Shown piece by piece: positions 803 to 63,390 of a stretch of DNA of 64,000 nucleotides. The stretch's first letter is position 1; each line of letters begins with the position of its first letter. The notes beneath the pieces were generated by a model. That model saw only the letters and a program-made list of their open reading frames with translations, was not told the DNA's origin and searched no databases. The stretch is from Cephalotus follicularis (taxonomy: Eukaryota; Streptophyta; Magnoliopsida; Oxalidales; Cephalotaceae). Location: assembly GCA_001972305.1 (NCBI GenBank), contig BDDD01001821.1:70715-134714 (forward strand). Direction: 5' to 3'. The position numbers and the translations under genes are program-made.

Positions 803-914
803 CAGTCGACTGCCCTCAAGAATAGTCGACTGCTTTGGTTGAGTAGTTGACTGCTTTACCTTGGCAGTCGACTGGATGGTTGAGTATTCCACTGTCATTA
901 TGAACAGTCGACTG
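803..914. repeat. Palindrome array F1 (CAGTCGACTG units)
   Basis: Perfect or near-perfect copies of the 10-bp palindrome CAGTCGACTG start at 803, 823, 844, 865 and 905, with a degenerate copy near 885. Spacing is therefore 20-21 bp, about two turns of B-DNA. The spacers between copies are unrelated to each other, so this is not a simple tandem duplication. The copy at 844 has TTGA in place of TCGA. Confidence 0.85.
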
Positions 915-1971
915 CTTCTGCCCAGAAAGTGCAGGCAGTAGCAGTTTGTATGCAACTACATGTCCAATTCAATACAATCAAGGCATGTAACAATGCAGAA
1001 AATGAAAATACATAATATGCATACTATATCTTCCATAACATATCATTACCCCAACCTCAAATGCTATCCCAAGATCAATTGGATTTGATCTTTCTCTTTA
1101 AAGCTTCCAAGCCTTTTCCCAACAATCCTTTGAATCCAGCAAGTTCAATCTATGTATGCATGTTTATGGACACATGCATAAGTACAAGTAGGTCTCAGTA
1201 AACACTTATAACAATCACAATTACAACAGTGGCTAATTACTAGCTCATTCAGTCTTGAACATCACTCTTACCATTCTACCACTTCCTCTTTGAACTCTAT
1301 GTCAAATATCATTAATTTTTGGGTTCATTGATCTTAACTTGATTTGACAGAAGATACATGTATACATTAATGGAATCAGTAGCTTATTTCATGGCAACTA
1401 ACGACAACTACAATCCAATTTAAAGATCATAGCTTCACTTTACTGGAACCATTACTACATTCCATTTCAATTCAATTCTAGAAGTTTGTTAACTTAACCA
1501 TGTTAACAGAAGATCAAACATCCATCTAGTTGCCTTATCAACACATAGCAGAGGGTTCGGATTTGGAACTTACCAAGAGAAGTCCCAGCTTCCAAGCTCC
1601 TCCTTTGAGCTCTAAACCATCCACATGCAAGCTCCTTCAATTCTCCAGCAATTCTCCTCAATTCAGTGTTTTCTAACACTCACATTCAGCCTCTGGACAG
1701 CTGAATATAAGGCTTTGAGACTTGAAATCGCCAGGCTCAATTACTCAGCCTCTCTCATCACATGCACCTCTCTTTCTCTCTTCCCTCTATCTCTTTCTCA
1801 CCTTTCTTTCTTTTTGTGTCTGCAGGTACAGGTCTGAAATCTTGCAGAGCAGATGCAAGGGCTTTCCTTGCATGTCATGGCAGCTGGTGCATGCCCACGA
1901 CACCTGTCCCCTTGCATGCCATGCTCCTGTTCTGTTTCACACATGCACAGACACCTGTTCTGCTGCAATTC

Positions 1972-2078
1972 CAGTCGACTATCCACAACACGCATCAGGC
2001 AGTCGACTGCTCCCCTATGACAGTCGGCTGCCCCTTCACAAACCAGGCAGTCGACTTCCTCCCTGTGGCAGTCGACTG
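1972..2078. repeat. Palindrome array F2 (CAGTCGACTG units)
   Basis: Copies of the CAGTCGACTG palindrome start at 1972, 2000, 2021, 2048 and 2069. They fall into pairs 21 bp apart (2000/2021 and 2048/2069) with a pair-to-pair period of 48 bp. The array lies about 170 bp inside the presumed 5' end of LTR F, the same place as the second array of LTR G. Confidence 0.85.
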
Positions 2079-2250
2079 TCAATGGTCGTTTTGGGGTTTC
2101 ATAAGTCCGATACATCACCAATTGTACATCCATTCGTTTCAAGCATTTACCAATCACAAATTATAATAATTGGACACATAATTCAATTAAAATGTATATT
2201 TATTTTAATCATGGAATCAATATGCATTAATTGAATTAGCGGTTATTACA

Positions 2251-2366
2251 CAAACTTAGCATACCCACTGACCAATGCCATCAGCAATTCGGTACTTGAG
2301 AGAGTCATATATGTACGATATTCTTAGGCTGTAAGGTCTTCATGGATTCAGGGCCAAGTGGGAGAT
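2251..2366 (+). mobile_element. Copia E: end of pol and polypurine tract
   Basis: Just after LTR F the sequence resembles the very end of a Ty1/copia polyprotein (the region that reads DPLTKA in relatives, here YPLTNAI). It is followed by the usual non-coding tail and the polypurine tract AAGTGGGAGAT at 2356-2366, next to the LTR start. The rest of E lies left of the window or has been lost. It is a broken fossil, and only this tail and the 3' LTR are visible. Confidence 0.7.
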
Positions 2367-3742
2367 TGTTGGAGTTGGGTGTCCCTGCAAGCCATGAAGG
2401 GGCTAATTGGGTGTACATATATAATACATTTCTTAGTTGGAATAATCCATGCATGCCTATGGTTGGCTGCATGTATGTACTTTACACTCTAATCCTACAT
2501 TCTAAGTTCTAGTTATGTTCTATTGTGCATATATATATTCACAATGGCAAACCGGCTGTATGTGATATCCCAAACCGTCAAAAGCGGATCAGTTGATTGC
2601 CATGTCAACTGATTACACATATAGCGCCCTGTCACCGAGGGGCTGGATCTCATGCCTAGAGAGGTAATCAGAATGAGGTCCTTAGTCCCTTCAGACAGAA
2701 GTTCCAAGTCATAAGTTCACTTTCTGGGAAATTGATGAACCGCAAAGACTTTCCGTATTATGCTTGCTCCCTCGTTTGTAGGACGGCTTCTCTTATTGCC
2801 GTTTAGATTGCACTAAAGCTGATGCGGGGTGCGTGCTAGAGAGCATGACACTGAATCGACCTACCATAGGTGACCTATCTGGATGGACATTACCCTTGTC
2901 GATAGGATCCGTATTGTTTTCGGTAGTGTATAGTCTATGGTGACTAGTAGGTCTTAGCCTACGTTGTATCCTTAGACCTGAGCGGCTGGCATGCGTTATG
3001 TAGTGACTGTATGACTTTGATTTTTGCCTTCCCCAGTACTAGCCAGGTCCTGGAAAAAGGGTTGTCTTTGTGTCATGTGGAAGCTGCATTGAGATGTGTG
3101 GGCGCAGTTCTCAATATGGAATCATCACACCCGTAATGATGGATGAATGGCTCTATATGATCGTGACCATTGTTAACTAAAAGACCTGGCCAGGCTTAGG
3201 CGGACTGGATCTAGGGTGACTCCAGGGAGGTCCGTCGAAGTCACAATGTGTTCATAGATTTATGTGGTCGCAGAATATCTTGAGTGGACATTTAATCCAC
3301 ACCCTTGTCCGTGGTTAGAGTCAATAGTGATGAGGGTTACATGACACATATGCCGAAGACAGGCTTAAACCTCTGGCTATCTAGTTATGGACTGATAGAC
3401 GTGGTGATACACGGATCCGGGGGTGATGAGAGCTCACACCGGGGCCATCTTCTGAATAGTCGAGAGGACTATTAGGATGGTCATACTAGAACTCGGGATG
3501 TTCTGAGAAACTTATCAACATACCAGATATCGACCATGCTTTTTGGGTCCTACCTGCTTTGAACAGGTTGACAAGTGTGAGAGATACATGTCATTTAGGG
3601 AAAGGACAACATTGAGAGGATGTTGCTTTGCCAGTGAGTATTTCATATGCTGGATTTAGGTCAATGCATTGCCATGATGAAATCTCCAAGCAAAGGGTTG
3701 AAAATGTATATATAGAAGAGAAATGTCTCATCCTTGCCTTGC

Positions 3743-4090
3743 GCGTCGACACCATAGAGAGTATGCATCGACGCCATGGATTTCAAGGACTTCTGGCATT
3801 GACTCCATGGAGAGAATACGTTGACCCATGAGAAAGCCTCTGGGTGTTAACGCCATGTGTACGCATTGACGTCAAGATAGGAAAAGATTGTGAGTCTCAT
3901 CCGTCCTTACACGTCGACACCATCTCTGGGCGTTAACGCCATGACAGGTGGATCCATTACACCGATGCCATGGAGAGCATGCGTTGACATTATGAAAACT
4001 AGGGACTTTACGCGTTGACGCTATAGGTTAGGCGTTGACGCCTAGACAGGAAGAGTCGACGCCATCGGTAGGCGTTGACGCCTAGAGGGG
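3743..4090. repeat. Palindrome-pair array E (GCGTYRACGCC units)
   Basis: Units of the form GCGTCGAC/GCGTTGACGCC occur as pairs at 3743/3765, 3796/3818, 3844/3863, 3911/3930, 3961/3981, 4012/4032 and 4053/4072. Within-pair spacing is 19-22 bp and pair-to-pair period is mostly 41-53 bp. A further unit sits at about 4235. Many units have TTGA or TTAA in place of the TCGA core. The spacers differ from pair to pair. Confidence 0.85.
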
Positions 4091-4130
4091 AGTATATATA
4101 GATTAAGATAAGCTTCTTTGACACATAACT

Positions 4131-4178
<48 letters not shown>
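4091..4178 (+). promoter_or_regulatory. Probable LTR E promoter: TATA-like box and CT run
   Basis: AGTATATATAG at 4091-4101 is a TATA-like box. About 35 bp downstream begins a 44-bp TC dinucleotide run (4135-4178), typical of plant initiator and 5' UTR pyrimidine tracts. The palindrome array ends just upstream, so the array occupies the enhancer position. Promoter use is inferred from layout only. Confidence 0.5.
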
Positions 4179-4181
<3 letters not shown>

Positions 4182-5037
4182 CTGGTTGTCTTCTCTCTTC
4201 AACCTACAGAACATACGCATCGAGTACATAGGTTAGGCGTTGACGCCCATATTGCCTGGTGCGATTTTTCTGCCATTTTCAACCATCATTTCACCCCTCA
4301 AAGCTCCATATAGGTGGAGATGATTTGTTCCTTGCATCTCATCTTTATCTATGCAGTTTATAGTGTAGGATAAACACTCAAACCTCTATCATCATCTTCC
4401 TTGTGCATGGATCAAGGAGGATCTTGGAGCTTTAATGGAGGATTTGGAATTAAAGTGATGAGGGAGCTCTTGAAGGAAAGAGCCATCACTTGAGGTAACC
4501 AATTTCTTGTCTCCCTCTTTTTGGATTCAGATTGGGGCTAGGGTTCATGATGAATGGGTATGTGGTTTTGTTATGGGCGACAAGCTATGTGTCATAGCGT
4601 GTGTGCTTCAGGTTGTGGCTCAGACATGCCTACCCTGGCCGAACCCCCTGGTTTCGTGGAGGAACCATTGCGATTCCTTAGGGTTAGGGATTGCTCTTGG
4701 TTCGAGTTTGTGGGTCAATTGTTTAGGGATTGTTTGTGTTCCCTTTGTACAATTGTGTGCGACCATTGTGAGAGTTTACGGTAACTCTCACTCCAAACCT
4801 GTTTCTCCCTTATGCTTGGATCGTTGGTGTCGGTTTGGCTACATGCTCTATTAGGATTCCTGGACTTATTAGGACAATTGTGGACAACGGGTAAGGATAC
4901 CATCTCTTGGGGATCAATCATTTGATTGAAAATCAAAATTGATCACCCTATAAACCTAATGCCTATAATTGATGTTTGTAATCGCTTCCGCCACGCATAA
5001 AGCCTTTACTTCCCCCATGGTTTGGGGGTTCCCAACA

Positions 5038-5228: not shown

Positions 5229-6997
5229 TGATGGAATCGGACAAAACCGAGTCCGGTGCCAAAATGGACAAAGGGTGTAAAGGGTGTAGAATAAAACTTA
5301 ATAATTGTAATACCCGGTTCGTTCGTAAATATATTTTTACGGAATCGTAAATATTTTACGGATTTTATGTGTTTTCGGACTTTTAATTTTGTTTAATTTT
5401 TAAAGTCCGGTTGCCCAAAGATCGGGTTTATGTAAATTGTGCGGTATGATACCGGTCCGATATTTGGGTATGTTTTTCTATGTTGGGTTTTATAAATTAT
5501 TATTTTAATCCAAAATTATTTTATTAAAAACAAATTATTATTCTTTTATTTTAATATTCCTTATTTTTCCTTTTCATTATTAATTCATTTTGTTATTATT
5601 TCTTTTTCTTTTCTTTTTCCTATTTTATCATTTGAAATGGTGAAATACTGAGCTTTTATATCCACCTATGGGGGTACCATAGGCATGCTGTGAGCCTGGC
5701 ACGGGGGCATGACACTTTCCGTAACGGTGTGATTTGTTTACGGCGTCTCTCTGTGATATCCGTAGATCGGATTTGTGATAGAGGGGTATGTATCAATCCT
5801 AGTTATATGTTTTGTGATATGTTATGATATGGGAATTGTATGTGTAGTGCCGTACACTGCAATTCTATTTGGCAACGTGGGTGTCGCGAACCCCTTGCTA
5901 TTATGTGTTTCTGATTTGGTGCTCAGTTTATGGAACCTATGTTTTGGAAAAGATATGCTTTACGTTTTGAAAGTTTATTGATCCTATGTTTTGGAAAAAG
6001 GAAACTTTATGGTTTTCAAAGCTATGAACTTTGTTTATCCGTTTTGTCGTGGGCATTTATAAAACAGGTTTAAATTATTTATTGCTAAAGATTTCAGTTT
6101 TAAATGCTCTTTTTGGAAATCTTCCTGCTTTAAAATATTATTTACTGCTTTATATTCTATATCCGTACTGAGGTTTGCTCAGCCGCGTTTTTGTTTCCAT
6201 GCGGCAGGTTATCGGGAGCAAAGGGGCAATGTGTGATGAGAGTGACACCCATCTTATCTGAGGATTGTCTAGTAGTTGATCCTTTATGTTATGTGGTCAT
6301 AGTGGAACCCAATAATTAAATAATGTGTTATTTCAGTTTAAGACCTTTGGATTTTGCATAAATTTCAGTTATGATCAGTTTTTGTATGTTATGGATGTGC
6401 TTTAAACCATCACGTTTTTAATAAAGATGAACATTTTTAACATGATGTGATCTGTTTAGTTTTGGTATTATGGACTGTGGCGACTCCCACAGATCGGGGG
6501 TGTTACAATAATACAATCATGGCAGCGGAATAACATCCTAAATAACAAAACTAGTCCATAATGACACGTCCATAGATCACATGGATCACCACAACATCAA
6601 CAGAATTGAATTGGTGCCACCATTGTAAACAATGGTGACACACAAGCATGGCATAAGGAAGAAGGACCAAGAATTATACCAGTGGGTGAAGGCTCCTTCT
6701 TTCTTTACCGCTACAAGCTTGAGTAGATTCCCTTTGATGTTCTCCAAGCCTCGGGAACAACAAACAATCCAACCAGCAAAGCTAAAGAGCATGAACTCTC
6801 TCTCTTTCTCACTTGGCATAGAAAAGGTAAATTGATATTGACCAATGAAGTCAATGATCAATCCACCCTAGATAAGCCTTTGGTTGGTGTATATCAGATG
6901 AAGGAACACTCACAAACTGCAGAGAAATCTGAGTTCTCTATTTCCCAGCAAAAACTCAAACTTTTTCCTCCTATTTACTTTCTGCAGAAAATGCCTA
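5229..6997 (-). repeat. Copia A: left LTR (partial), holding solo LTR M
   Basis: 5229-5305 and 6508-6997 match the minus-strand LTR at 15939-18097. The two parts are separated by the solo LTR M. It is the 3' LTR side of the original minus-strand insertion and is only partly represented. Confidence 0.75.
5306..6507 (+). mobile_element. Solo LTR M (gypsy-type, 1,202 bp) with ATAAT duplication
   Basis: It starts TGTAATACCCGG and ends GGGGTGTTACA, typical TG...CA ends of plant Ty3/gypsy LTRs. ATAAT is present on both sides (5301-5305 and 6508-6512). The uninterrupted site in the sister LTR at about 16010 reads ATCAT between the same flanks, which proves insertion. No primer-binding site, polypurine tract or coding remnant adjoins it, so it is a solo LTR left by LTR-LTR recombination. 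The first third is AT-rich; no palindrome array is seen. It is younger than the A copy it sits in. Confidence 0.9.
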
Positions 6998-7290: not shown

Positions 7291-8227
7291 TGATCTTACT
7301 TAACCAATATTTGAAGGGTACATGAGATCACTAAAAGAGTTAGACTCTTTATGCTTCACTGGCCAGAAGGCGTCGATGTCTTTTAGAAAGACGTCGATGC
7401 TTAACTCTTTTTAAATACGTCGATGTCTTTTAGAAAGCGTCGATGTCTTTAGTGACACATTGCATAGGCGTCGATGTCTTTTGGAAGACGTCGACGTCTT
7501 TGAGAAGAACGTGCAACCTGTGCACGAGCTCACTTTGTGGGCACATTTTCTCTCTCATTTCCAGCAACAATCTCCTGTTCTTTATGTTATGGGAACATGG
7601 GGATCATGGCCACAGACTCCCTAGGAGTAAGGGCCATGATCCTAAGTGAGTGGGTGAGAGAATTTGGAGGCTAGTGATAAGGATTTCTGCAGAAAATGAA
7701 AAGGTGAGTTTTGAGAAGTTTTGTTGGGCAAGAGGCTTCGATTTTCTCTCTGCAATGTGTTCCTTTCATTTGTGATACACCAAGCAAGAGCTTGTCTAGG
7801 GTGGATTGATCATTGACTTCATTGGTCAATATCAATTTACCTTTCCTAAGCTAAGTGAGAGAGAGTGAGTTCAAACACTTCATCATTGCTGGTTGGGTTG
7901 TTTGTTGTTCCTAAGACTTGGAGAACATCAAAGGGAATCTACTCAAGCTTGTAGCGGCAAAGAAAGAAGGAGCCTTCACCCGCTAGTATAATACTTGGTC
8001 CTTCTTCCTTTTGCCATGCTTGTGTGTCACCATTGTTTGCAATAGAGACACCAATTCAATTTTGTTGATGTTGTGGTGATCCATGTGGTCTGTGGGCATG
8101 CCATAATGGATTGGTTTTTTTTATTGGGTGTTCTTCCACTGCCATGATTGTATGTTTTGTTTTATTCTACACCCTTTACACCATTGTCAATTTATGGCAT
8201 TGGATTTGGTTTTGTCCGTTTCCATCA
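7291..8227 (+). repeat. Copia A plus copy: 5' LTR (partial)
   Basis: It matches the 3' part of the full LTR (15939-18097, minus) and the LTR at 13305-14485. It ends TTTCCATCA at 8227, one base before the primer-binding site. It holds a palindrome array at 7371-7500. Confidence 0.8.
7371..7500. repeat. Palindrome-pair array in A 5' LTR
   Basis: CGTCGATG/CGTCGACG cores start at 7371/7392, 7418/7439 and 7470/7491. Each pair is 21 bp apart and the pair period is 47-52 bp. Units have the form GACGTCGATGTC. The same array is seen in the 3' LTR (13628-13752) and the inverted LTR (16687-16822). Confidence 0.85.
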
Positions 8228-8228: not shown

Positions 8229-8240
8229 TGGTATCAGAGC
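8229..8240 (+). other. Primer-binding site of A plus copy
   Basis: TGGTATCAGAGC is the standard Ty1/copia primer-binding site, complementary to the 3' end of initiator methionine tRNA. It begins one base after the 5' LTR. Confidence 0.9.
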
Positions 8241-10010
8241 ATCCCACATCATCCTTAATTGAATATGTATGCCTTAGATGATGTACTGATTAATAGTTTA
8301 ATTAATGTATGTGCTTTGTGATCAAACTAAATTTTCAAAGTGCTTTAATGAAAATTGAATGAAATTGGATTTCATTGTGTTTTCGTGCTGGGAATGTTGT
8401 TTAAATGTGTTTAGAATTATGTTTGGAACATGCATAGTGCATTTTGGAATGCCAGAATGGTATACCAAAGTCTAAACCATTGATTTCTGCATTTTTCGAA
8501 ATGCAGAAACTGCCCAGGGGGCTAAAGACGTCGACGTTCTTGGTAGACGTCGATGTCAGGTTCATATTCCCAGGAAAGACGTCGACGTTCTTGATAGACG
8601 TCGATGTCTTGTTCATATTTTTGTGAAACGCGTCGATGTTCTTGTTGGACGTCGACGCCTTTTTCAACTGTTCTTGAGAAACGCATTGATGCTCTGTTTT
8701 TGGATCGACGCTTTGTTTTTCCAGAAAACACGTCGATGCCCTTTGGAAAGGCGTCGACGTCTTTTATAAAAAAAAAACTATTTTTAATAAAATTGGATTT
8801 TATACATTTTGGCCCTTGGAAAATTAAAAATCATTGCTTGATTTAGTGGGAGTTTGATCAATTAACAATCCTTGAATTAAATTGAGTAATTGGTTATTAT
8901 TTATGGCATGTGTTTTATTTGTGGTTTTATTATATTGGATATAATATAGATCTTATGCACAATGGATGGCCCGAAAAAGGACTTTGACCTAGTTTATGGT
9001 TTTCTATGTGTGAATGGATATTTATTTATATATTATTTTAAAGGTCTGTAATAAGGTGCCTGCGTGCACCATTTATTTTTCCTTACTTTTGTTATTTCTC
9101 CTTGTATTTTTAAAATGTAATTTTTCTTTTCAAAAATGTAATGTTCTTTTGGTAAAAGAAGACCTTGCAAGGAGAGATGGAGGAAAGGAGAAATGAAGTA
9201 CAAGACTTTTGAAGGCCATGTATGCATGGTTGTTGATGTAATAAATAGAATTAAATCTTTACACCTAGGAAGACCTAGTAGTGACTTTGGGCTCAAGTCA
9301 TTACTAATATTGTCCTTGCCAAATCCATTGACATATTTTAGAAATCTGTCCAAGGTGCATAAGATACTCGTCTTGCATGCTAAGCCATAATTAATTGGAA
9401 TTGGCTAATATAACCAATGAATTAATTAATGGCTCGGTAATTAAAACATGAGACCGCAAATTCCCTCACTGCAATAATAAGTCTTAACGTAGGAACCCGT
9501 GGAGTGGTTCCCCGTGGGCTTCCACAATTTTCGTTGAGTAGTGTTCCTGGGTTGTTGGTTTGTCATGCCCTAGTTGAGGCTGAAGACTTGGGGATATTAT
9601 GTCAACGTCGGTGTTGGGCACCGCAAAGGGTGGCTATGTTTTAGCACTTGGACACGCCTACGTGTGGGTGTTAAAACTAGTGCATTCCAATGAAAATTGT
9701 GGGTACTTGACTTATTAAGATTCTGATGGTGTTTCATGCCCTAGCTGAGGCCATATTGAATCTAAGGCCGACTACTATGATTGGATCTTATATTGGATAC
9801 AAATTGGCAAGAAAGCCTACCCATTGGATATATTATAGTTTGTCATGCCCTAGCTGAGGCTATAATATGATTGCGATGGATTCCAATCCCCACTAGGAAG
9901 TTGGACTTCTCGAATTCCATATGGGGGTATGACATACGATTAGAATAGTGGGAGGGACCATAAGCACTAAAGACCAAGTGTTATGGTTGTCATATATTAA
10001 AATGGAATAG
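8241..10010 (+). other. Copia A untranslated leader
   Basis: About 1.8 kb separates the primer-binding site from gag-like sequence, long for copia. No frame in it resembles a known protein. It holds a palindrome-pair array (8525-8763), an AT-rich part (8780-9150), and three copies of a CATGCCCTAGYTGAGGC motif at about 9564, 9735 and 9844. Its first 1.45 kb is repeated in reverse at 14487-15938. Confidence 0.7.
8525..8763. repeat. Palindrome-pair array in A leader, 51-bp period
   Basis: CGTCGACG/CGTCGATG cores start at 8529/8548, 8580/8599 and 8631/8650: within-pair spacing 19 bp, pair period exactly 51 bp. More degenerate units follow at about 8684, 8705, 8732 and 8753. The two units of a pair are complementary to each other, so each pair could also fold in RNA as a hairpin of about 12 bp with a 6-8 nt loop. 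The 51-bp period (17 codons) keeps reading frames open without implying coding. Confidence 0.85.
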
Positions 10011-13000
10011 ATGCTGACTCAACTTATATTTCCTTATCTAGGTTTCTATAAAATGGCTTTACAATCTACTATGTCCCACATTCTAGAGACAAATAAATTG
10101 ATAGGCCCAAACTTCATCGATTGGCAACGTAAACTCAAATTCATCCTAACGGCCAATAAATTGGCGTATGTGAAGAAATGGGGGCCTCCATGACTAGGTG
10201 ATGATCCTACGCCTGATGAGTGCGATCGTCTGGCCATGTGGCTGGAGGACGATGAGCATGCTCGGTGTATCGCCCTTTTGGGGATCACACCGGAGCTGCA
10301 ACGTAAGTATGAGAAGATTGAGACCTTATCCGCTATACTACATGATCTCGAGGAGATATATTGGGCCGGGTCTAGGACTCAGAGGCTTAATCTCTCACGC
10401 AAGCTCTTCAAGGCGCAGATGCTAGAGGGAGCTTCAGTCCATGATCATGGACTGGAGATGATAAACATGATTGAGCAGCTTACTCAATTAGGGTTTGTCA
10501 TGGATCATGATTTGCAGATAGATCTTATCCTTACATCCCTCCCTGGATCGTTCTCACAGTTTGTGGAGTATTTTCACTTGATTGAGATAGAAGTAACTCT
10601 TTCTGAGTTAGTTTCTATGTTGAGAACGGCAGAGGCCAATCTTGACTCTAAGAAGTCAGAGATCCCAGCCCAGGAGGGCAAGCTTGGAGTTAGTGGGAGG
10701 GATGCCAAGAATCTAATGAAGCAGCTAGCTGCTGAAGGTGCTTGTTTTCAGTGTGGTAAGACCGGACACTGGAAAAAGGATTGTCTAGTTACTGGTGCTG
10801 GAGTCTCTTCTGATGTTTTGCATGGTGCAAGTACATCGGGTATGTTCATGATTGAACTAAATCTAACTTTGAATAGCAGTTCTTCATAGGTATTGGATAC
10901 TGGATGTGGAACTAACCTTTGCAATTCATTGCAGGGACTAAGAAAAGTTAGAAAGCTTAGAGCTGGAGACTTGGACTTACGACTTGGGGATGGATCTAGG
11001 ATCATCGCTGAGGCTGTAGGGATTTATGATATTACTTTATGTAATGGTCATGTATTGACACTTGATCCATGTTATTTCATTTCAAACGTTGTAAGGAATA
11101 TTATAAGTGTTTCATACTTATGTAATTTGGGCTTGGAGCTCAGATTCCAAGACATTCAATGTTTTGTTTATTTTGACAATGTTTGTGTCGGTAATGGTTC
11201 TATCGATAATGGATTATTTGTCTTAAATACTGCAAAATCCAAAGTCCTATCCATAGAGCAAAGTAATAAGAAAAGACAAAGGGAAACTGAGTTAAATAAA
11301 TCCTATACCTGGCATTGTAGACTTGGTCATCTAAGTGATGCTAGACTATCACAATTGGTTAAGGATGATCTCCTTGATATCCAAGACTTAGAGTCTTATC
11401 CAACTTGTGAATCTTGTTTATTGGGAAAGATGACCAAATCACCCTTCTCTGGTCAAGGAGAAAGGGCAATGGACTTACTAGGTTTAGTCCATACTGACGT
11501 ATGTGGTCCTATGTTAGTCAGGGCGCGAGGTGGTTATATCTACTTCATAACCTTTACCGACGATTTATCTAGGTATGGTTATGTGTATCTGATGAAACAC
11601 AAGTCAGAATCCTTTGAGAAATTTAAGGAGTTCAGACTTGAAGTAGAAAAACAAACACGTAAATCCATTAAAATACTTCGGTCGGACCGAGGTAGAGAAT
11701 ACCTGTCAGCTGAATTCCTAGGTTATCTTAGAGATAACGGAATTCTATCTCAGTGGACTCCTCCTAGAACACCACAGCATAATGGTGTGTCCGAAAGGAG
11801 GAATCGGACTTTGTTAGACATGGTTTGATCGATGATGTCTTTTGCTGACCTTCCTACCTATCTCTGGGGTTATGCACTAGATAGATGGAAAGATCGAGAC
11901 TTATAAAGCTCGATTAGTGGCGAAAGGGTATAGGCAACGACATGGAGTCGACTATACTGAGACTTTCTCACCTATCACCACGCTTAAATCCATTAGGATT
12001 TTGCTTGATATTACCACTCATTACGATTATGAGATATGGCAAATGGATGTCAAGACGGCATTTTTAAATGGGCGTCTTGAAGAGGATATTTATATGTCCC
12101 AACCCGAGGGGTTTACATCTTCCGAGCACCCGCACATGGTGTGCAAGCTCGAACGATCCATCTATGGACTAAAGCAAGCATCTCGTAGCTGGAATCTACG
12201 TTTTGATGAAGTAGTCAAAGCTTTTGACTTCGTTAAAAATGTAGATGAGCCCTGTGTTTATCGAAAGAAAGAGGGTCCTAGTATCACTTTCTTAGTGCTA
12301 TATGTTGATGACATTCTACTCATTGGGAATGATGTAGGGATGTTGCAGTCTGCAAAGATATGGCTAACTAAGAATTTTTCCATGAAAGATTTGGGAGAAG
12401 CCACCTATATACTGGGTATAAGGATCTTAGGGGATAGATCCAATAGGTTTCTTGGGCTTTCCCAAAGCCAGTACATCAGCAAAGTGTTGAAAAGGTTTAG
12501 CATGGAGAATTCCTAGAGAGGCCTATTGCCAATAGGTGAAGGAATTCATCTTTCTCGAAAGATGTCTCCTCAGACATCTGAAGAGAGAGCACGCATGAGT
12601 CGGATACCTTATACTTCGGCAGTAGGTCGATCATGTATGCCATGTTATGTACTAGGCCTGATGTCGCACTTGCCCTGGGTATGGCAAGTCGTTTTCAGTC
12701 TGATCCCGGTGCGAAGCACTGGGAAGTGGTCAAGGGAATCCTGAAGTACCTTAGGAGGACTCAGGATATGTTCTTGATACATGGAAAAGATAGTGAATTG
12801 AAATTGGAGGGCTTTACAGACTCCAGTTTTGATAGTGATCCGGATGATCAAAAATCAGTCTCTGGGTACGTTTTTGTACTTAATGGTGGAGCTGTGAGCT
12901 GGCGCAGTTCTAAACAAGGGACTATTGCGGATTCTACCACAGAAGCCGAGTATATAGCAGCCTCAGACGCCGCCAAGGAGGGTGTTTGGATGCGCAAGTT

Positions 13001-13290
13001 CATTACTGAACTAGGAGTTGTTCCTTCCATAATTAGTCCAGTTGTAATATACTGTGATAATAATGGGGCTGTAGCACAAGCCAAGGAACCACGGTCTCAC
13101 CAGTGATCCAAACACATCGAGTGGCGCTATCATTTAATCCGAGAGACTATTGGTAGGGGAGATATACAGCTTGAGAGGGTCTCCTCAGAGGAGAACACAG
13201 CAGATCCACTGACCAAGGCAATGGGCACCAAGGCTCTGGAGCTTCATCATGGGACGATGGGTCTAGTCTATAGGAATTCATGGCTTGAGG
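10011..13290 (+). pseudogene. Copia A plus copy: gag-pol remnants
   Basis: In Ty1/copia order the region shows a UBN2-type gag (about 10050-10720); a CCHC knuckle (CFQCGKTGHWKKDC, about 10744); a protease motif (DTGCGTN, about 10896); the GAG-pre-integrase zinc region (H..H and C..C) near 11310-11430; integrase core (HTDVCGPM, SDRGREY, NGVSERRNRTLLD); reverse transcriptase (FLNGRLEEDIYM, YVDD about 12300); and RNase H (FTDSSF, STTEAEYIA). Integrase before reverse transcriptase fixes the copia superfamily. Lineage is uncertain; the long LTRs recall Angela/TAR-like groups. It is a fossil with about half a dozen breaks. Confidence 0.9.
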
Positions 13291-13292
13291 GT

Positions 13293-13304
13293 CAAGTGGG
13301 AGAT
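13293..13304 (+). other. Polypurine tract of A plus copy
   Basis: CAAGTGGGAGAT directly precedes the LTR start TGTTAG. The same tract type adjoins the LTRs of copia E, C and B in this window. Confidence 0.85.
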
Positions 13305-44733: not shown

Positions 44734-44744
44734 CTCTGATACCA
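44734..44744 (-). other. Primer-binding site of copia C
   Basis: CTCTGATACCA on the plus strand is the complement of TGGTATCAGAG, the initiator methionine tRNA primer site. It lies two bases inside the LTR border at 44747. Confidence 0.9.
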
Positions 44745-44746
44745 CA

Positions 44747-47085: not shown

Positions 47086-47215
47086 GCGTCGACAGTTTGT
47101 TCTTAGGCATCGACGGTTTAGTTGTACAAAAGGACAAAGCGTCGAGCCAAGAGTCGACAGACCAAAGCATAAAACGATACAAAGTGGCGACGCTCAGAAC
47201 GAAAGCGTCGACGGT
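47086..47215. repeat. Palindrome array G1 (GCGTCGACGG units)
   Basis: Units GCGTCGACAG, GCATCGACGG, GCGTCGAGCC, GAGTCGACAG, GGCGACGC and GCGTCGACGG start at about 47086, 47107, 47139, 47151, 47186 and 47205. The first pair is 21 bp apart and the last about 19. Symmetry is weaker than in F and E. Confidence 0.7.
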
Positions 47216-47965: not shown

Positions 47966-48105
47966 CCGACTAAAGCGTCAACTGTTTACTTAAAGCGTAG
48001 ACGGTTAAACGATTAAACACAAAACGCGTCGAAGTCACACATTTAGGCGTCGACGTGCCACACAGTAGACAAAGCGTCGGCGGTTCTAATAAGAGCGTCG
48101 GTGCT
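47966..48105. repeat. Palindrome array G2
   Basis: Units related to GCGTCGACG (for example GCGTCAACTG, GCGTAGACGG, GCGTCGAAG, GCGTCGACGTG, GCGTCGGCGG, GCGTCGGTG) recur every 20-30 bp. Position relative to the LTR end matches array F2. Confidence 0.65.
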
Positions 48106-48228
48106 TTGCGCCCAGAAAACAAAAATAAAAGAAGTTTAAACCAAAAATCAAAGCGTTCACAACCATAGCATATATCAAAAGATATAAACCCAACATAAAA
48201 CATGCAAGCATAGGAACGGGATATTACA

Positions 48229-51559: not shown

Positions 51560-52900
51560 ACACGTATTCAGGCAATGAATCCCGAGTATGCTGAGCGCCG
51601 AGTATGCCATGTGTCTCATGACGTCCGAGCATGCTATGCGCCAACCACATAGTGCGTCCCAGCACCCCATTCATGTGCCGAGCATGCATCCTGGCATCCA
51701 TGCACTAAAACAGTGCGTCCTCACCATGCATGCGTCCGAGCATACAGAGATGGCACCCAAATGTGAACTGGCATGCATCCGGGCATGCGATGTCATGCCG
51801 AGATCCTTAACGCCATGCGTCCCGAGCATGGCATAGCTTCTGAGCTCCCTATCGTCGAGGTGCCGAGCTTTCCATTGTAAGCATGTGCGTCCTGTGCATG
51901 CCCGAGGTGCCGAGCTCTCCATTGATGCACACCTGAGCTTTCCACTGATGCGCACTCGAGCTCTCCACTGATACGCACCCGAGCTTGTCATAACGTGCAT
52001 GTTCCATGTATGCCGAGCAATGAGCCATAGTAAGCATTTTGAGCATGCAATGGCGCCGAGCTCCACTGTGAGGGTCCTAAGCATGTAATGGCGCCGAGCT
52101 CTCCACTGCATTCATTTTGAGCATGCAAGGCGCCTGACCACTATCAGAGCATGCATGTGTCCGAGATGTCGAGATGGCGCCTAAGCCAGCCATGCTGCGT
52201 CCGAGCATGCATGTGTCCGAGATGCCGAGATGGCGCCTAAGCCAACCATGCTGCGTCTGAGCATGCATGTGTCTGAGATGTCGAGATGGCACCTAAGCCA
52301 ACCATGCTGCGTCCGAGCATGTCGAGATGGCGCCTAAGCTAACCATGCTGGCGTTCGAGAATGCATACATCCGAGCATGCCGAGATACCGTCAAAGCATG
52401 CCATGCATGTGTCCGAGTATGCATGCGTCCCGAGCATGTACCATCGTACGTCCTGTGCATGTCAGGTAACGCGCCAAGCATGAAATGCTAGGTGCCCGAG
52501 CTCCCCAAGCATGCGTCCCAAGCATGCAACATTGTGCGTCTGAGCTCTCCAACCCAGTGCATCTGAGCACGCTGAGCAATACATCTTGGAACGCCATGCA
52601 TGCGCTACATCCGACCATGCATGCGTCCAAGCAGAGATGGCACCCAAGTGTGAGCATCCATGCGCCCGAGCAGTGAAGTACCCATGCGGAGCAATGCATC
52701 CTAGCCTACCATGCATGCACTAGAGCAGTGCGTTCTCACCATGCTGAGATGGTGTATAAGCATGCCATGCATGCTGCTGTGCGTCATAGCACTCCATGCA
52801 TGAGTCCAAGCAGTGTCCAAGCTAGACGTCGAGCACGCCTAGATATACAATCGAGTCTGCCAAATGGTGCGTCCTGCACCCGAGCACATCTGGCTATATT
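51560..52900. repeat. CCGAGCATGC repeat field in LTR L
   Basis: The field is GC-rich in an AT-rich window. Short units with a CCGAGCATGC or GCATGCGTCC core recur dozens of times. Within it a 56-bp unit is repeated in tandem, starting at 52151, 52207 and 52263 with a partial fourth copy. GCATGC is itself a palindrome. Confidence 0.8.
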
Positions 52901-54088: not shown

Positions 54089-54240
54089 ATTTATGAGATT
54101 GACTTCCAATATGTGAAGTATTCATCAATTTATGAGATTGACTTCCAATATGTGAAGTATTAAAAAATTGGATATGACACATGACATCAATTTCATGAAA
54201 TTGGCTTCCAATGTGTCAACAATTTTAAAAAATTGAACAT
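54089..54240. repeat. 39-bp tandem repeat
   Basis: TTATGAGATTGACTTCCAAT starts at 54091 and again at 54130, giving a 39-bp unit in two close copies; a third, diverged copy (CATGAAATTGGCTTCCAATG) follows at about 54195, and another partial one precedes at about 54035. Confidence 0.75.
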
Positions 54241-54975: not shown

Positions 54976-57204
54976 CTATGGCTGCATTTGTTCTCTCAGA
55001 TTTCCAAGAGGGCCATTGCCTTTCTCTTTAACCGCTTCATTGCTGCAACTGCAATTACCAGTGTTCAAATTTGTGGCGCATCCAAGACATACACCTTTGC
55101 ACTTTGGATCACAAACGGCGTTTATGGTGATTTCCAAATGCACCATGTCTCTCATGGGCTTTGAAATGTCAAATTCTTTTTCCTGACGAGGGAAATATAG
55201 CCAATTGTCCATATCAGTTGAAGCTTCATCATCTTCCTCTTCCTCCTCACTATTTCCATTAGAATGGAGCTTATTTTCTCCATAGACCACTCCCATGTTG
55301 ATTATTTCGGGTTCTTGAATGGGTTCTTCTGTAAGTACGAGTGAGAAGTTGGAGAAAATACACTCAGCAGATTGCTCACCACACCTTCAATGTCAAATAA
55401 ACCAAGGAAGAGATCGAGTATTAGTACTATGCATATAGCCTAACAAAAGCAGATTTTGTCCTTCGTATTACCTGAAGAGCACATTAAATGTGTTTTTTTT
55501 TTCTGGTAACAAGTAGAATTTCATCAAAACCAATTCTGATAAGACAATCAATACTATCAAAGCGCTAAACGAGCAAACCTCACAAATAAATTTACTCCAT
55601 TTACCTGCCAGCTATACATTCCTAGAAGCATTCATTTAATTTTCCCAAGTATTTTTTATGAGGTAGGATTCATTGACACCTGATGATAAACTTTTTAGTT
55701 TATCACCCCATCTTATATCATTTAATGAAGTGCATTAATTTCAAAACTTTAATTAATGCATTCTATTGAGTAGTATAATATGTGGTTGGACAATAGATCC
55801 TATCTCATTTTTAATTGGTGCGGGATTTATAGAATACCTAGACACTCCACATAACTTGCAAAAGTTGAAGGATATCTGTCACGATGACAGCCATAGTTAT
55901 TTATCTTACTAGTTACTCTCCTTATTCCAGGAGCTGAGGAAACCAAATTGCCTGTACAGAGTTTTGCATATTCTTTCCCAGATCTCATACTTGAACACAC
56001 TTCAAAAAAAAAAAAAAAAAACAATAAGTAGATACACATTAAGCAGCCATTGAAAATTTGTAGTTCCTGCTAATCTATTGCAATCCATTAGTTGAAAGTT
56101 GCTACAGGTTTCATTAAATCGTACTGAAAATTCTTGTTAAAAAGCTTGGCTCCAAGTGACGAGCAAGTTGGCATTTGACAATTTCATAAGATTAGAATAA
56201 CTCAGACGCTGGTTCTAACATAATTATCAAGCTATAACTGTAGCTTCTTTGTTTTCTAGGAAGAGAAGACATGTTCCTACCTCCGAGGGACCAAAGACAC
56301 CTACTCCTTTGTTAATTAACCAGAATTGGCAATTACAGATACAACTACATGTCTAAATATATTAACAATAGAGTAATCTAACAAGGAGGGTGTTGCTCTA
56401 AAGGACGTTTCCACTTTTATCCCAACATCTCTACCTTGCGAATGGTAATTAGATGGGGACAAACACAAACTTCCTCTTAAAATAACAATTAAAATTGTCA
56501 AGTTGGGTAATAGTATTTTAAAAGCATGTATACTAAATTCAAAAGGGTAAAGAAAGAAAACATAACATAGAAAAATTAACATTAAAAAGATGTCTTAAAT
56601 GACTTGGCGAGCAAAAAAGCGACCATTGAATAGATAAAAACTAATGACAAATGAATTACCTATTGCAATCAAGTGTGATCACAGTTTTAAGAATCCCATC
56701 AAGCCTCAATTTTTGCTTCTACCTTGTCACATCAATGGATATTTGAACAGGCGTTCCAAGGGGATAATCCTTGAAGGATTTTGTGACAAGTAATCCCATA
56801 ATGGAAGCCCTAGATTTTGAGGTTTCAGTGGAAAGCCTTCCCAATCCAAGCCTCTCTAAGGTTGTGCAGTACTCCACATGTGAAATTGATGGGTTCCTCC
56901 GGTAAATAACAGCCCCTTCCCATGGGGAACCATAGTCTTCACAGTCTTCTTCATCTTCCCAATCAAAGTTTGTTTCAGAGAATGACATATTAGTTGGGTT
57001 TAAGGAACTTATAGCAGTAGACTTGGTAATACCACCAGGTGGTTTATTTCTGAATAATCTATGGATATTGCAGATAACAACAGCCGCCCATGAAATGTTG
57101 CAATGCATGAGAGAAGAGCTTGAATTTGATGAAGCATATCTTTGGGGACGTAATTTGATATGCAAAGAGGAAGCTACAGAGGATAAGGATAGTGTAAGTG
57201 ACAT
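54976..57204 (-). CDS. YceD/DUF177-family plastid rRNA accumulation protein, with in-frame TAG
   Basis: Two coding exons: 57204-56660 and 55384-54976 (317 codons if the TAG is read through). The N-terminus (MSLTLSLSSVASSL..., rich in S, basic, no acids) looks like a chloroplast transit peptide. The body has PWEGAVIYRRNPSISHVEY, LGTPVQISIDVTR and LDGILKTVITLDCNR|CGE, where the bar marks the exon join and CNRC is the family CxxC. The C-terminal half has an acidic linker, then CDPKCKGVCLGCATNLNTG and a last CSC. This matches plant DUF177 proteins (large rRNA subunit accumulation protein YCED homologues, probably homologue 2), needed for plastid 23S rRNA. The start is the first ATG. Codon 162 is TAG (56719-56721) where relatives probably have lysine. 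Either the allele is disrupted or splicing avoids the stop. Confidence 0.85.
55385..56659 (-). other. Intron of the YceD-family gene, 1,275 bp
   Basis: The donor is AATAG|GTAATT and the acceptor TTGACATTGAAG|GTGTGG, both on the minus strand, in phase 2. The intron is AT-rich. It contains a small inverted repeat GATAAACTTTTTAGTTTATC around 55684 and an A-run at about 56003-56020. I see no gene in it. Confidence 0.75.
56719..56727 (-). promoter_or_regulatory. Candidate alternative 5' splice site over the TAG
   Basis: The minus strand reads ACAAG|GTAGAAG, with the putative exon end at 56723. Joined to the downstream exon at 55384 it is also phase 2, so ACA AG|G TGT GGT stays in frame and gives a 296-residue product without the stop. 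It omits 21 codons, including the TAG and the first cysteine of CxxC. Use is inferred only. Confidence 0.45.
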
Positions 57205-59420: not shown

Positions 59421-61550
59421 CATATGCCCCCCTGTTCCTTCTTCTCTGCCCTTAGCAGAGGAGGAGGAACAAAGCTGAGAGTTGTTACTCGGCATAACTT
59501 CGTGGTAGTGTTGGATTCAAACTGACAGAGGAAAAAGATCTTTGTGGGATTCTTTGACAACACCAGGCTGGCCTGATAAAGATTAAAAAGCAGAGGTGGA
59601 GGGCTCTTGCTCAGTTCGTCACCTTGGGACATGGTTGGGCTTGCCTTAGCATCTTTGGGCCCAAACCTAGCATTCTTAGTAGGCGTTTCGAACACAATTT
59701 ACACGTGGCAGGTCCTACATAACTCCCGCTTTGTCTCTTCGTTTCCCGCACCAGATCCAACGGTCCATTTGATCTCTAGAGATTGTGTGGCTTGGATCTT
59801 TTCTTGAGTCTTTAAAAAGATATTTTCTTCTTCGATATGCTTCTTTTTACTCTCTTCGTCGTCAGAAGGTCATCCCGTTGTGCTAGACTTCTCTGGTTTC
59901 TTGGGCTGTCAAGTCAATCTAACTTCCTTCATCCATCTTCAAACTTCTAGGTGAGTTTTTCTTAGCTGTCTATTTTTTCTGCCTATCCTAGATCTTTGCC
60001 TTAGGTTCTCTCAGTTTCCCATACCCCTTCTCTGGTTGAGATGGCTAGAAATGAGAGAAATCGTAGATCTCCTACCCCTAAGGATGTCACTCCCTTGGCG
60101 ATGGTGGTACCTATCGCCGAGGGCTCCCGTAGCTCTGAGGGAAGTGTGGGTACTGCCATGGGAGCCCCTGATGCTCCCGCCGCTGAAGTTAGACCTCAAA
60201 GCTCTGCTGACTACCTTGAACTGAGTACCCTTTCCCGTGGGAAAGTATTAGAACTCGCCAAAAAACACCGTTTTCCTGGGGCATAAGATTTAACCTCCCC
60301 TAAGATCCCCAGATGGCTTTAGAGAGCGGACCTGGCCTCTTCGTGGTGTTTGAGGATACCCTTTCACACGGCCTGCGAATACCAGTGTCCCCTTTTGCTA
60401 CTTTGATCCTGAGGAGTTTTGGGTTGTACCCCACACTCCTCCAACCGCAGTCCTGGAGCTTTGTAATGGGTTTCTTGGTCAAGTGTCTCGAATCAGAGGT
60501 CACGGCGACTGTGGGATTATTTAAAGAGTTCCACGCTCTTTCGACCTCCCTAGGTAAGAGTGGATACTTTTTCAAATCCCGCCCTGGCGGCAAGAAACTG
60601 CTAATAAAGCCTACCAAATCCATCAAGAACTGGAGGATGAGGTATGTACTGATAAAGAACCATCTTGAGTTCATTGCCCCCCGCTGGTGTGACACACTAG
60701 ATACACCACTCATGAATAAGGGGTCTCGTCTGTCTTCGAGAGAAAAGGTGGACCTCGGCAAGCTCTTGGCCTTAGAGGTCGAGGAGGTGAACTCAGCGAT
60801 TCTTGAGGATTGTCTGATTCGAGTTGGGTTGGGCACGATTCCCGGCCAAGTTCCCCACTGGGGTGATTCCAAGGACACCTCAAAGGGGGCAGACGTTCAG
60901 GGGGAGAAAGTGCAGGATAGATGCTCAACTGATGAGCCGGGGGAAAGCTGTATTAAGCCTCCATCTCTTCCTTTAAATTTATTTCTTCCAATGCTTATTT
61001 CATCTCTGACCGTTTTATTTTCTTGTGGCTTCTTTCAGCAATGACTCCTCGGCGCGTCTTTTTTGACATCCTGAAGGGCACTGACAAAAAAAAATTGTTG
61101 CAGACGGCTCAAAAAAGACCGAAAAGTTTGCTGAGATCGGAGGGTCAAAGAAAAAAACCAACGCTCCCGAGGCTGCTAGGGGTGCTACTGTCTCCTCGCT
61201 ACTGAGAAGAGGAAAGATGGGAGCAAGAGGTCCATCGAAGAAAGCTCCCCTAGTGAGGTCAATGTGCCCCTGAGGAAGAAAAGCAGAAAAGGGAAGGGTG
61301 CCGAGGAGGTTGTCACTCTTGGCACGAGTCCGCAGGACCCAATCTTGCTTCCCCCTCCTCGGGAGATTAATAGTGTTCTCAGCGACCTGGAGGCTTTGGA
61401 TGGCTCCAAATTAACTCTGAATGCTCCTGGGGTCCCTCAGGCAGTTAGCCAACTGGTCTTCTTTCCCTTGGAAATGATGGCGAGGAAGGAGTGGACCAAC
61501 GAGGAGTTTGTAACACAGTGTCTTCAGAGCAACCTCAGGGTAAGTGACCT
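59421..61550 (+). pseudogene. Gypsy K: antisense gene with Transposase_28-like domain
   Basis: K lies on the minus strand, so its antisense gene reads on the plus strand. A proline/serine/alanine-rich start (MARNERNRRSPTP, 60041) precedes the domain GLFVVFEDTLSHGLRIPVSP ... FVMGFLVKCLESEVTATVGLF (60330-60530) and FKSRPGGKKLLIKPTKSIKNW, clearly homologous to D's antisense product. Splice-like sites match D: TTTCTTTCAG before ATGACTCCTCGG (about 61041) and CAGG|GTAAGTG near 61540. 59450-60040 may be its promoter and 5' UTR, with a CT-rich leader. The gene is cut by LTR H at 61551 and is broken. Confidence 0.75.
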
Positions 61551-62089
61551 TGTCACACCCCGTTCCCATAGCAACAATAAAAGTGGTGGCAATCAACATA
61601 TAAATCCGGCTTATGCAATTTATCATAAATTTAAAACTTTCCATATCCATTAACTTGCGAAAGTATTTAAATATAAGCCGAATAATAACGTAACATGCAT
61701 CCCATACTACATGCTACAACAATAAACATCATCAAAGTTAACTGCCCACAAACGGAGCGTGAACAATATACAACAATATATCGATTCATTTATTACAATG
61801 ATCCATTGACATTTCTCAAAAGTAAAAACAACATAAAACTCCATTCGCTCCACGGAGCTCAACGGTAACAATCCGCTGCATCAACCTGAAATCAATCTGA
61901 AATTGTAGGGGGTTAGCCTTTGTCCTCACTCGGCTAAGTATAAATACAGTTCGGTTTCAATGATAATGCATGTCATGTATGAATGCACAGTGATGCAGTA
62001 CGGTATATATAACAGTATATACATATATGTATCTATATATGCATATACACAGTACAGGTGCAACCCGTTAGGGCTACATCAACACAATC

Positions 62090-62600
62090 ACGGTCATGTC
62101 CTCAGCGGACCAGTCACATACATGTCCTCAAAGGACCGAGCAAACCATCAGTTATGCCTCAACGGGCCAACAACCAGTCCGAGTCCGATATCTACCACCC
62201 GAAGGTTGGTAGTATCACATATCGATGCTAACCGGCACGTAGGCGGGGAAAGCTCGATCAAACAATCAATCAAACACGTCCAAAGGACCAACCACTACGA
62301 AGCGACGCTAACCGTCCCGGACCAGAAAAGCTCGCGGCTATCTGGCCCCAAGCTGGGAAAGCTCGCCCCATGTCGATACTAACCGTCCAGGGCTAGGAAA
62401 GCTCACAGGCTAACCGGCACATGGCTAGGAATAGCTCGACCATCAGTCAATGATGCTAACCGGCCCCGAGCTAGGAAAGCGCACAGCTAACCGTCTCGTG
62501 GTGCTAGGAAAGCTCAACAATCCAAAGATGCTAACCGGCCCCGAGCTAGGAAAGCGCGTAGCTAACCGTCCCGTGGTGCTAGGAAAGCTCACAATCAATC
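62090..62600. repeat. GCTAACCGKCC...GCTAGGAAAGCTC repeats in LTR H
   Basis: Units made of GCTAACCG, then a CCCGTGGTGCTAGGAAAGCTC-like part, recur throughout. A higher-order 75-bp unit starting GATGCTAACCGGCCCCGAG is repeated at 62452 and 62527. A related TAGCAC repeat is found at the same relative place in LTR F (about 25-190). Confidence 0.75.
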
Positions 62601-63138
62601 AATAACATCCACGTTACTAGCACGGCGGCTAAGTAACAACAATCAATACACGGTAAACGATACTAGCACGGTGGCTAAGTACCAACACTATTCACAATCA
62701 CGATAACAGTGCAATCACAGCACACAAAACCACTCAAGTAGTTTATAAAATAAATACTTGGTCAAAACATCTCGTTCAAAACATTGCAGTTCGTTTCCAA
62801 AACGTTTAAAAGTAAAAATACTTACAACATATAAATATTTGTCAAAATATATATATAACTCTCCATTTCCCAAGTAAATTATGCTTCATAAAATACTTGC
62901 AACAATACATTTCCCTTCAAACACTTCAAGTAATTTATAGATATAAATACTTGAAACATATATATTTGTCAATATATATAACAATCCTTTTGGAAAACAT
63001 ACTTTTCCATATAACAATGATTTAATAAACCATTTATACACTTCTAAAATGAAGAACATTTTAGAAAACAGGTGATAGCTCAATCAACAATCGTATGCAA
63101 TGCGAACATTTGCTCAATAATGCAAACGGGCTCTATTC

Positions 63139-63390
63139 GCGTCAACATACACCATATAGGCGTTAATGTTCAACCCAATCACTTAAGCGTCGCCGCTTAA
63201 CTCTTAGTGTCAACGCGTTCAACCATAAACTTTACGCGTCAACATCTCATCCCTTTGGCGTCGATGCTCTGAGGTAGGAACCTCAGGCGTCAACGGCACA
63301 CATGTCCATTCTCACATACAACAAATCATGACGTCGACGTTTTCCGTAAGCGTCGACATTTTTCGCGAATTCTTTCCTAAGCGTCGATGG
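63139..63390. repeat. Palindrome-pair array H (GCGTCRACG units)
   Basis: Units start at 63139/63160, 63187/63207, 63236/63258, 63287, 63331/63350 and 63381. Within-pair spacing is 19-22 bp and pair period about 48-50 bp. Cores are GCGTCAAC, GCGTCGAT, GCGTCGAC and ACGTCGAC. The spacing rule is the same as in arrays A, E and F. Confidence 0.85.

Follow-up and report, generated by a model that had tools for sequence, protein, structure and literature searches.

Paired TCGA-type dyads with a common spacing in retroelements of six families in 64 kb of the Cephalotus follicularis genome

The window analysed here is a stretch of 64,000 nucleotides of Cephalotus follicularis DNA (assembly GCA_001972305.1, contig BDDD01001821.1, positions 70,715 to 134,714 of the forward strand) and is rich in plant-type long terminal repeat (LTR) retroelements. 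Arrays of short TCGA-type palindromes (dyads) were found in six of the element families, called A, C, E, F, G and H. The dyads are paired at 19-22 base pairs (bp), short and long gaps tend to alternate, and five of the families have one extended motif in common. In A, C and E the arrays are located in the LTRs or the 5' leaders. The arrays may be cis-regulatory DNA bound by a dimeric host factor. A previous reading of the sequence alone (the sequence-only reading) had claimed at least twelve non-coding arrays in these families, and twelve were confirmed where it had placed them. Three are copies of A arrays, which leaves nine distinct arrays. The twelve are as follows.

795-925: F array 1, CAGTCGACTG dyads at 807, 827, 848, 869 and 909, with a decayed one near 890 (by eye).
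1960-2090: F array 2, dyads at 1976, 2004, 2025, 2052 and 2073 (1976 and 2025 outside the automatic list).
3735-4090, plus strand: E array, 13 GCGTTGACGC-type dyads spanning 3747-4076, with a lone extra unit at 4241.
7360-7510, plus strand: 5' LTR array of A, 6 GACGTCGATGTC-type dyads spanning 7374-7492.
8520-8770, plus strand: leader array of A, 10 dyads spanning 8532-8755, between the primer-binding site and gag.
13600-13800, plus strand: copy of the LTR array in the 3' LTR of A, spanning 13644-13741, its first unit broken by a deletion.
15350-15700, minus strand: copy of the leader array in A', an inverted relative of A, spanning 15404-15633.
16640-16850, minus strand: copy of the LTR array in A', spanning 16693-16810.
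44300-44595, minus strand: leader array of C, AAAGACATCGATGTCTTT-type dyads spanning 44314-44580, between the primer-binding site (44744) and gag.
47075-47225: G array 2, dyads at 47090 and 47111 and, by eye, at 47188 and 47209.
47965-48115: G array 1, 6 dyads spanning 47979-48099.
63125-63400: H array, 10 GCGTCAACGC-type dyads spanning 63143-63385 (63143 by eye).

All eleven pairs read by hand in the earlier work were present as placed, with the dyad centre 1-4 bp to the right of the number quoted. Their description as centred on TCGA was exact for 12 of the 22 units (3/8 in E, 6/6 in A, 3/4 in F and 0/4 in H), and the remaining centres were TTGA, TCAA, TTAA, TCGG or TCGC. A curated list of 69 units was used for the nine distinct arrays, with 42 exact TCGA centres, 9 TTGA and 8 TCAA. 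Six of these units were added by eye (1976, 2025, 3822, 47188, 47209 and 63143), which favours the expected gap. The list excludes the automatic hits at 8481, 44539 and 47017, the lone unit at 4241 and a weak cluster at 54100-54188. The observed/expected ratio of CpG was 1.12-1.94 in seven of the nine arrays and 0.51 and 0.71 in the two F arrays, compared to 0.54 in the rest of the window.

The 60 gaps between neighbouring units of this list fell into 34 of 19-22 bp (mean 20.5, standard deviation 1.0), 19 of 26-34 bp (mean 29.5, standard deviation 2.2) and 7 larger ones, and no gap of 23-25 bp was observed. With automatic hits only there were 57 gaps, of which 31 measured 19-22 bp and 17 measured 26-34 bp, the other 9 being larger; every one of the nine arrays had at least one gap of 19-22 bp. 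Short and long gaps alternated at 34 of 51 neighbouring gap pairs compared to 20.6 in shuffled order, and none of 5000 shuffles reached this value. F array 1 does not follow this order and has successive gaps of 20-21 bp. The pairing at 19-22 bp claimed by the sequence-only reading was found in all six families; the two helical turns to which it had been likened are compatible with this distance rather than demonstrated by it. Strict helical phasing of all units ("all on one face") was unsupported. The long gap varies instead of holding at three turns, and Rayleigh R over all gaps was flat between 9.5 and 11.5 bp.

Shuffle tests were made independently of the curated lists. The window, A copies included, had 146 units with two or more of the four outer pairs, compared to 95 in 100 local dinucleotide shuffles. 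Dyad pairs were in large excess at 19-23 bp (21 compared to 0.56), at 47-53 bp (20 compared to 1.23) and at 67-74 bp (20 compared to 1.33). When the A copies were masked and 60 shuffles were run, TCGA gave 9 pairs at the short distance where 0.10 were expected and 10 at the long distance where 0.15 were expected. The other 15 palindromic 4-mers gave, at the short distance, ATAT 10 (1.92 expected), TATA 3 (1.47), CGCG 2 (0.03) and GGCC 1 (0.03), and at the long distance ACGT 2 (0.10). Such ratios overstate independence, since one array is one event and not many. Chance clustering of dyads was ruled out by the shuffles, and the excess at about 20 and 50 bp, on which the sequence-only reading had been made to depend, was found at both distances.

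The letters surrounding the TCGA core, which had been thought to differ by family, proved largely common to five of the six families, with F alone apart. A, C, E, G and H have one extended dyad in common, roughly CRTCGAYG, with similar flanks. Symmetrised profiles gave the consensus units AAGACGTCGACGTCTT for A, AAGACATCGATGTCTT for C, GGCGTCGACGCC for E (the middle often TTGA), AAAGCGTCGACGCTTT for G, GCGTCGACGC for H and GCAGTCGACTGC for F. Each single-family profile was run over the window outside its own family, and the top 40 sites were counted, A and A' copies included. Between 34 and 40 of these sites fell inside other arrays (A 36, C 34, E 40, G 40, H 40), where 1.0-1.5 were expected by length. 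The A and A' copies accounted for 32 of the 34 sites of C, 27 of the 40 of E, 26 of those of G and 23 of those of H; the sites of the A profile outside the A copies were 11 in E, 11 in C, 8 in G and 6 in H. The F profile placed 10 of its top 40 outside sites, and 2 of its top 20, inside other arrays. The arrays were found via the TCGA core, and these matches partly reflect that core. The comparison was also made on the outer positions only. Units of A, C, E, G and H, each scored with the profiles of the other four families, reached -6.4 to +13.8 bits, compared to averages of -10.8 to -18.7 bits for 1031 control TCGA, TTGA and TCAA sites elsewhere. F units scored -4.8 to -15.3 bits, except for +0.5 under the G profile. 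By these profiles five families have one extended dyad in common, C being the most derived.

Both promoter-side and transcribed placements occur among the arrays. The E array lies mid-LTR between two TATA-like sites, one at 3707, 40 bp ahead of its first dyad centre, the other at 4093, 17 bp past its last. The leader array of A begins 303 bp past the primer-binding site. For H, a TATA-like CTATAAATAG lies on the minus strand at 63514; if minus is the sense strand, the array is 129-371 bp downstream of it. A pattern search gave no TATA-like site from the A LTR array to the end of that LTR. The sense strand of H is taken from the one TATA-like site, and those of G and F are assumed. Splice-donor-like GGTGAG or GGTAAG was seen near arrays at 7703 (A), 63619 (H) and 1574 (F), and none in G. 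Given such sites, which may be chance occurrences, the leader arrays might be intronic.

With confidence somewhat short of even, the best reading of the arrays is that they have a cis-regulatory role in LTR retrotransposons and are bound by a dimeric factor of the host. LTRs and 5' leaders would hold clusters of a 10-16 bp dyad with the core CGTCGACG, tolerating the change of CpG to TpG or CpA. One dimer of a host DNA-binding protein would sit on each dyad, and neighbouring dyads about two helical turns apart would place two dimers side by side. The same site in different families would mean that all of them use, or are caught by, one host factor. Local duplication of the pair of about 50 bp would enlarge the arrays and keep the geometry. 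Protein binding, the dimeric state and the host origin of the factor are suggested by the sequence, and the effect could be activation or silencing. Protein-bound DNA was favoured over RNA hairpins and a bare minisatellite because of the fixed gap, the common motif and the indifference of the spacers between families; this preference stands at somewhat less than an even chance overall. The common constraint proposed by the sequence-only reading is partly supported. It gains from the extended motif in five families, the 19-22 bp pairing in six and the unrelated spacers, and loses by duplication, the homology of A and E, the merely putative second superfamily and the lack of excess conservation.

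Several observations weigh against binding by a host factor. Covariation between the two arms of a unit did not exceed what the array consensus gives (240 matches compared to 235, P 0.21), and the long gaps showed no phase-locking at 10.5 bp (Rayleigh R 0.35). Under the C profile E units scored -6.4, H units -5.4 and G units -0.8 bits, and the C-trained profile mostly finds A. F is without the common arm letters and shares the centre and the gap alone. Array units were selected for symmetry, which gives them an edge over the control sites. The leader arrays lie downstream of the promoter. In the LTR, 9/138 array sites were changed between A and A' compared to 11/140 in the immediate flanks (P 0.82), where 2/4 CpGs were kept. 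The leader array had 16/245 sites changed compared to 68/1197 in the rest of the leader (P 0.65), and inside the arrays units and spacers changed alike (14/192 and 11/191, A/A'). The A/A' copies give no sign of purifying selection on the arrays. Since the immediate flanks proved as conserved as the arrays, confidence in a bound host factor was reduced, as was that in a control code across superfamilies, and neutral growth was rated higher.

A whole-LTR view of A and A' gave a different picture, with 9/138 array sites changed compared to 137/806 in the rest (P 0.0009) and CpGs kept at 11/13 in the array compared to 4/18 in the rest of the LTR. This contrast is due to a fast block at 7561-7850, which differs by 23-30% from A' where its neighbours differ by 6-11%; the LTR could be a mosaic, or this part of it fast-changing. 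The first impression of purifying selection on the arrays was therefore withdrawn, the immediate flanks being equally conserved between A and A'. CpGs of the leader were kept at 18/24 in the array and 13/21 in the rest. Between the two LTRs of A, 3/127 array sites were changed compared to 26/723 (P 0.60), and CpGs were kept at 10/11 in the array compared to 5/11 (P 0.06).

An ancestral array could also have been inherited, or passed between elements by template switching, and then kept up by slippage as a minisatellite without function. Such neutral growth is the less probable explanation, a serious one nonetheless, and would fit an array that changes as fast between A and A' as its immediate flanks. 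Spacers within arrays were more alike than shuffled ones (short 0.55 compared to 0.46, long 0.49 compared to 0.41), most clearly in the A LTR and in C. Tandem Repeats Finder reported units of 51-52 bp in the A and C arrays, and the two results together indicate that some arrays grew by duplication. The LTRs of A' and E are homologous (756 bp, 63%, E-value 6e-49), and their arrays begin about 345 bp (A') and 357 bp (E) past the last homologous LTR block, so that the place has been kept and the unit letters have changed. An alignment of the A and C arrays covers about 140 bp at 67-70%. The presence of tandem arrays of other motifs in the window (19.2-19.5 kb; 51.6-52.8 kb; 62.2-62.6 kb) also speaks for neutral growth. 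Neutral inheritance does not account well for the likeness of spacers between families, which equals that of shuffled ones (short 0.43 compared to 0.43, long 0.38 compared to 0.39), for a 19-22 bp gap that is constant though the spacers are unrelated, or for the prominence of TCGA among the 16 palindromic cores. A comparison of eleven regions gave little similarity between families outside the arrays apart from A/E, with short or weak matches up to about 160 bp; A/E, C, F, G and H have little homology there. The claim that spacers are not conserved consequently stands between families and fails inside some arrays, where the short spacers of the A LTR were 0.92 alike (n 3; its long ones 0.29, n 2) and the long ones of C 0.89 (n 2). 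Simple duplication of one ancestral repeat, which the sequence-only reading had dismissed, does apply to growth within some arrays and sits well with the homology of A and E; the unrelated spacers between families agree with the dismissal.

Hairpins of RNA or single-stranded DNA were the next explanation considered, in which neighbouring dyads would pair within the transcript, the small hairpins serving replication or packaging or being turned by the host into silencing small RNAs, as proposed for maize Sireviruses. Predicted folding lay below that of shuffled sequence for all nine arrays when the plus strand was folded (z -2.5 to -11.6) and for eight of them with the minus strand. On the presumed sense strand z was -11.6 for the A LTR, -6.8 for the A leader, -10.0 for C, -4.4 for E and -3.2 for H. 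Any palindrome array folds, however, and among seven control stretches the array at 19 kb reached -5.5 and a solo LTR -3.5. G array 1 had z +0.33 on the minus strand, and H folded better on the strand opposite to its presumed sense strand (-5.6). Inner arms of neighbouring units matched slightly better than when re-paired (110 matches compared to 103.4; P was 0.016 in this one of four tests of the kind), but the outer arms did not clearly do so (P 0.13), and direct likeness of neighbours gave P 0.38. In the arm-covariation test two by-eye G units (47188 and 47209) were placed one base off; compensation between a unit's two arms was unsupported (P 0.21). Central CpGs of the E, C, H and A leader units had become TG 16 times, CA 0 times and TA 3 times on the presumed sense strand, as wobble pairing would allow, but the A' leader and LTR copies lack this strand bias (TG 1, CA 2) and one CA occurs in F. 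A general sense-strand C-to-T bias was rejected as the source of the TTGA centres, A/A' outside the arrays showing CA 11 and TG 5. Flanking CpGs of the E, A, C and H units decayed mostly to symmetric forms, chiefly in A and C (left CA 15, TG 4; right TG 18, CA 4). An Rfam scan of the 64 kb gave no match at gathering score. The leader arrays of A and C lie within the transcribed part, which speaks for hairpins, and a 19-22 bp gap is not something that hairpins require. On balance hairpins are judged unlikely, though a live alternative. Far less probable still is recognition of the arrays by a protein of the elements themselves, either an anti-silencing factor of the VANC kind or Gag or integrase. 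The VANC targets of VANDAL DNA transposons are dense short motifs in non-coding tandem repeats, gained and lost together, and differ between families (PMC5735166, PMC10398659). The arrays here are likewise non-coding tandem repeats, but one motif is found in five families, whereas VANC targets are family-specific. The VANDAL motif is moreover 9 bases long, in one orientation and bound by an element-encoded protein, in contrast to the arrays here (PMC5735166, PMC10398659). Four scanned frames of A and four of C gave gag/pol matches or none.

A more specific form of host-factor binding would be that a single DNA-binding system of the host recognises one fixed grammar, in which CGTCGACG dyads are paired at 19-22 bp and the pairs recur about every 50 bp, and which copia- and gypsy-type elements acquired or kept independently in their LTRs and leaders. 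This is considered rather doubtful, though somewhat less so than hairpins. If true, it would amount to a cross-superfamily control code for the retroelements of one plant. If a common host factor underlies the arrays, it would show how one plant can recognise a large number of retroelement families together, or be exploited by them, and the short testable sequence could serve as bait for this putative factor. Palindromic LTR boxes were formerly tied to Sireviruses; here several other families share motif and spacing, with spacers and most flanks unrelated.

The closest precedent is the palindromic motifs of Sirevirus LTRs, a resemblance without a match. These repeated motifs (RM boxes) are palindromes 10-20 bp long that cluster in multiple copies upstream of TATA in the LTR and are CpG-rich (PMC2829016). 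The RM core is CGG-CCG except in Tnd-1, RMs are called absent from classic copia, and two published RMs are TCGA-centred, CGGTCGACCG of Vitis and ACAATCGATTGT of Tnd-1 (Bousios et al. 2010, PMC2829016). Many-copy palindromes clustered in LTRs are found here too. Unlike the RM boxes (PMC2829016), the arrays have the core CGTCGACG and also occur in 5' leaders, and one motif and one spacing are common to several families of one genome. The consensus here is CGTCGACG, CATCGATG or CAGTCGACTG and not CGG-CCG. The Sirevirus primer-binding site junction is CA/ATTGG/TATCAGAGC, compared to CA-GTGG-TATCAGAGC in A and A' and ACA-TGTGG-TATCAGAG in C; ATTGGTATCAGAGC is absent from both strands of the window, and no primer-binding site was seen in E, F, G or H. 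In place of the multiple polypurine tracts of Sireviruses (AGGGGGAG), AGTGGGAG borders the LTR in A, E and C; AGGGGGAG is absent from 12601-13310 of A, the stretch before the 3' LTR in C and E not having been searched. Sireviruses have at least 8 boxes in the upper half of the LTR before TATA, compared to 13 units mid-LTR in E, 6 in the A LTR and a leader array only in C. A, C and E thus differ from Sireviruses, on sequence grounds, in the core and polypurine tract comparisons made, and A and C also in that of the primer-binding site.

The palindrome-rich cis region of maize Sireviruses (copia) was reportedly identified as a small-RNA hotspot by Bousios et al. in 2016. Later work treats Sirevirus palindromes as such hotspots and sees no obvious peak of these structures in maize Ty3 elements (PMC10760457, PMC5311732). 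As in the maize Sireviruses, the arrays here are palindrome clusters of putative LTR cis-regulatory type able to form hairpins. In Drosophila, the Su(Hw) insulator of gypsy and the leader enhancer of copia are factor-binding sites in the 5' leader of LTR elements. The likeness to these is in layout only, the elements being those of animals and the motifs different. A symmetric activator in the copia 5' untranslated region has also been mentioned (PMC2829016). In the literature on LTR palindromes, a search outside which most subscription journals lie, no title or abstract start pointed to the TCGA-dyad motif or spacing.

The coding and boundary features of the elements were as follows.

8229-8240, plus strand: primer-binding site of A, TGGTATCAGAGC.
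10194-12513, plus strand: gag, integrase and copia reverse transcriptase pieces of A (three separate open frames).
39595-41010, minus strand: copia reverse transcriptase of C.
2367-5037, plus strand: E, with a 3' LTR TGTTGG...CCAACA, polypurine tract AAGTGGGAGAT just before it and homology to the A' LTR.

The assignment of the arrays to two superfamilies held in part. A match to PF07727 identified copia-type reverse transcriptase in both A and C, which are 53% identical in this enzyme, and E is probably copia, judged through its LTR homology to A' alone. A gypsy origin of F, G and H is putative; the frames scanned at these elements gave no Pfam match above the curated cut-off. A frame at 60304-61041 (plus strand), which lies to the left of the H array at a distance of about 2.1 kb and might belong to H, matches PF04195 ("putative gypsy type transposon"). 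F and G have a TGTAAT-type end on one side only, a type we take to be common in Ty3/gypsy, and no LTR end was seen for H. One scan of viral contigs with the A reverse transcriptase piece confirmed no relative. Arrays are not universal among retroelements, since none was found by the unit scan in a gypsy-type coding region at 27.5-31.7 kb and TCGA is absent from the 1-kb bins that contain the solo LTR at 5306-6507.

A appears to be inserted in A', whose LTR ends lie near 5229 and 18097 with CTACC on both sides. The 3' LTR of A (13305-14485) is without about 965 bp found in the A' LTR (15939-18097), the break lying inside the first array unit. The solo LTR at 5306-6507 (TGTAATACCC...GGGTGTTACA, target-site repeat ATAAT) splits the left LTR of A'. 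C (38411-45234) is bounded by the target-site repeat CAAAA and seems nested in another copia element, with a reverse transcriptase piece at 38174-38413 and a later part perhaps at 45240-46060 (no Pfam match). Among the tandem arrays of other motifs, that at 19204-19521 consists of GACTCCTAAGGGAGC, near-palindromic and with a period of 25 bp; before it an apparent gypsy integrase fragment was seen by eye, with a weak Integrase_H2C2 match below cut-off. At 51600-52870 degenerate repeats of the CGAGCATGCATG / GGCGCC type form a long array of 56-58 bp units, which lies about 480 bp past a TATA-like site near 51123 (by eye), in an element that starts with TGTAACATCCG at 50748. Tandem repeats of 75 bp (GCTAACCGGCCCCGAGCTAGGAAAGC) at 62227-62603 adjoin the H array. 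A YceD-like frame (PF02620) at 54979-55386 on the minus strand was the sole scanned frame with a host-gene-like Pfam match above cut-off.

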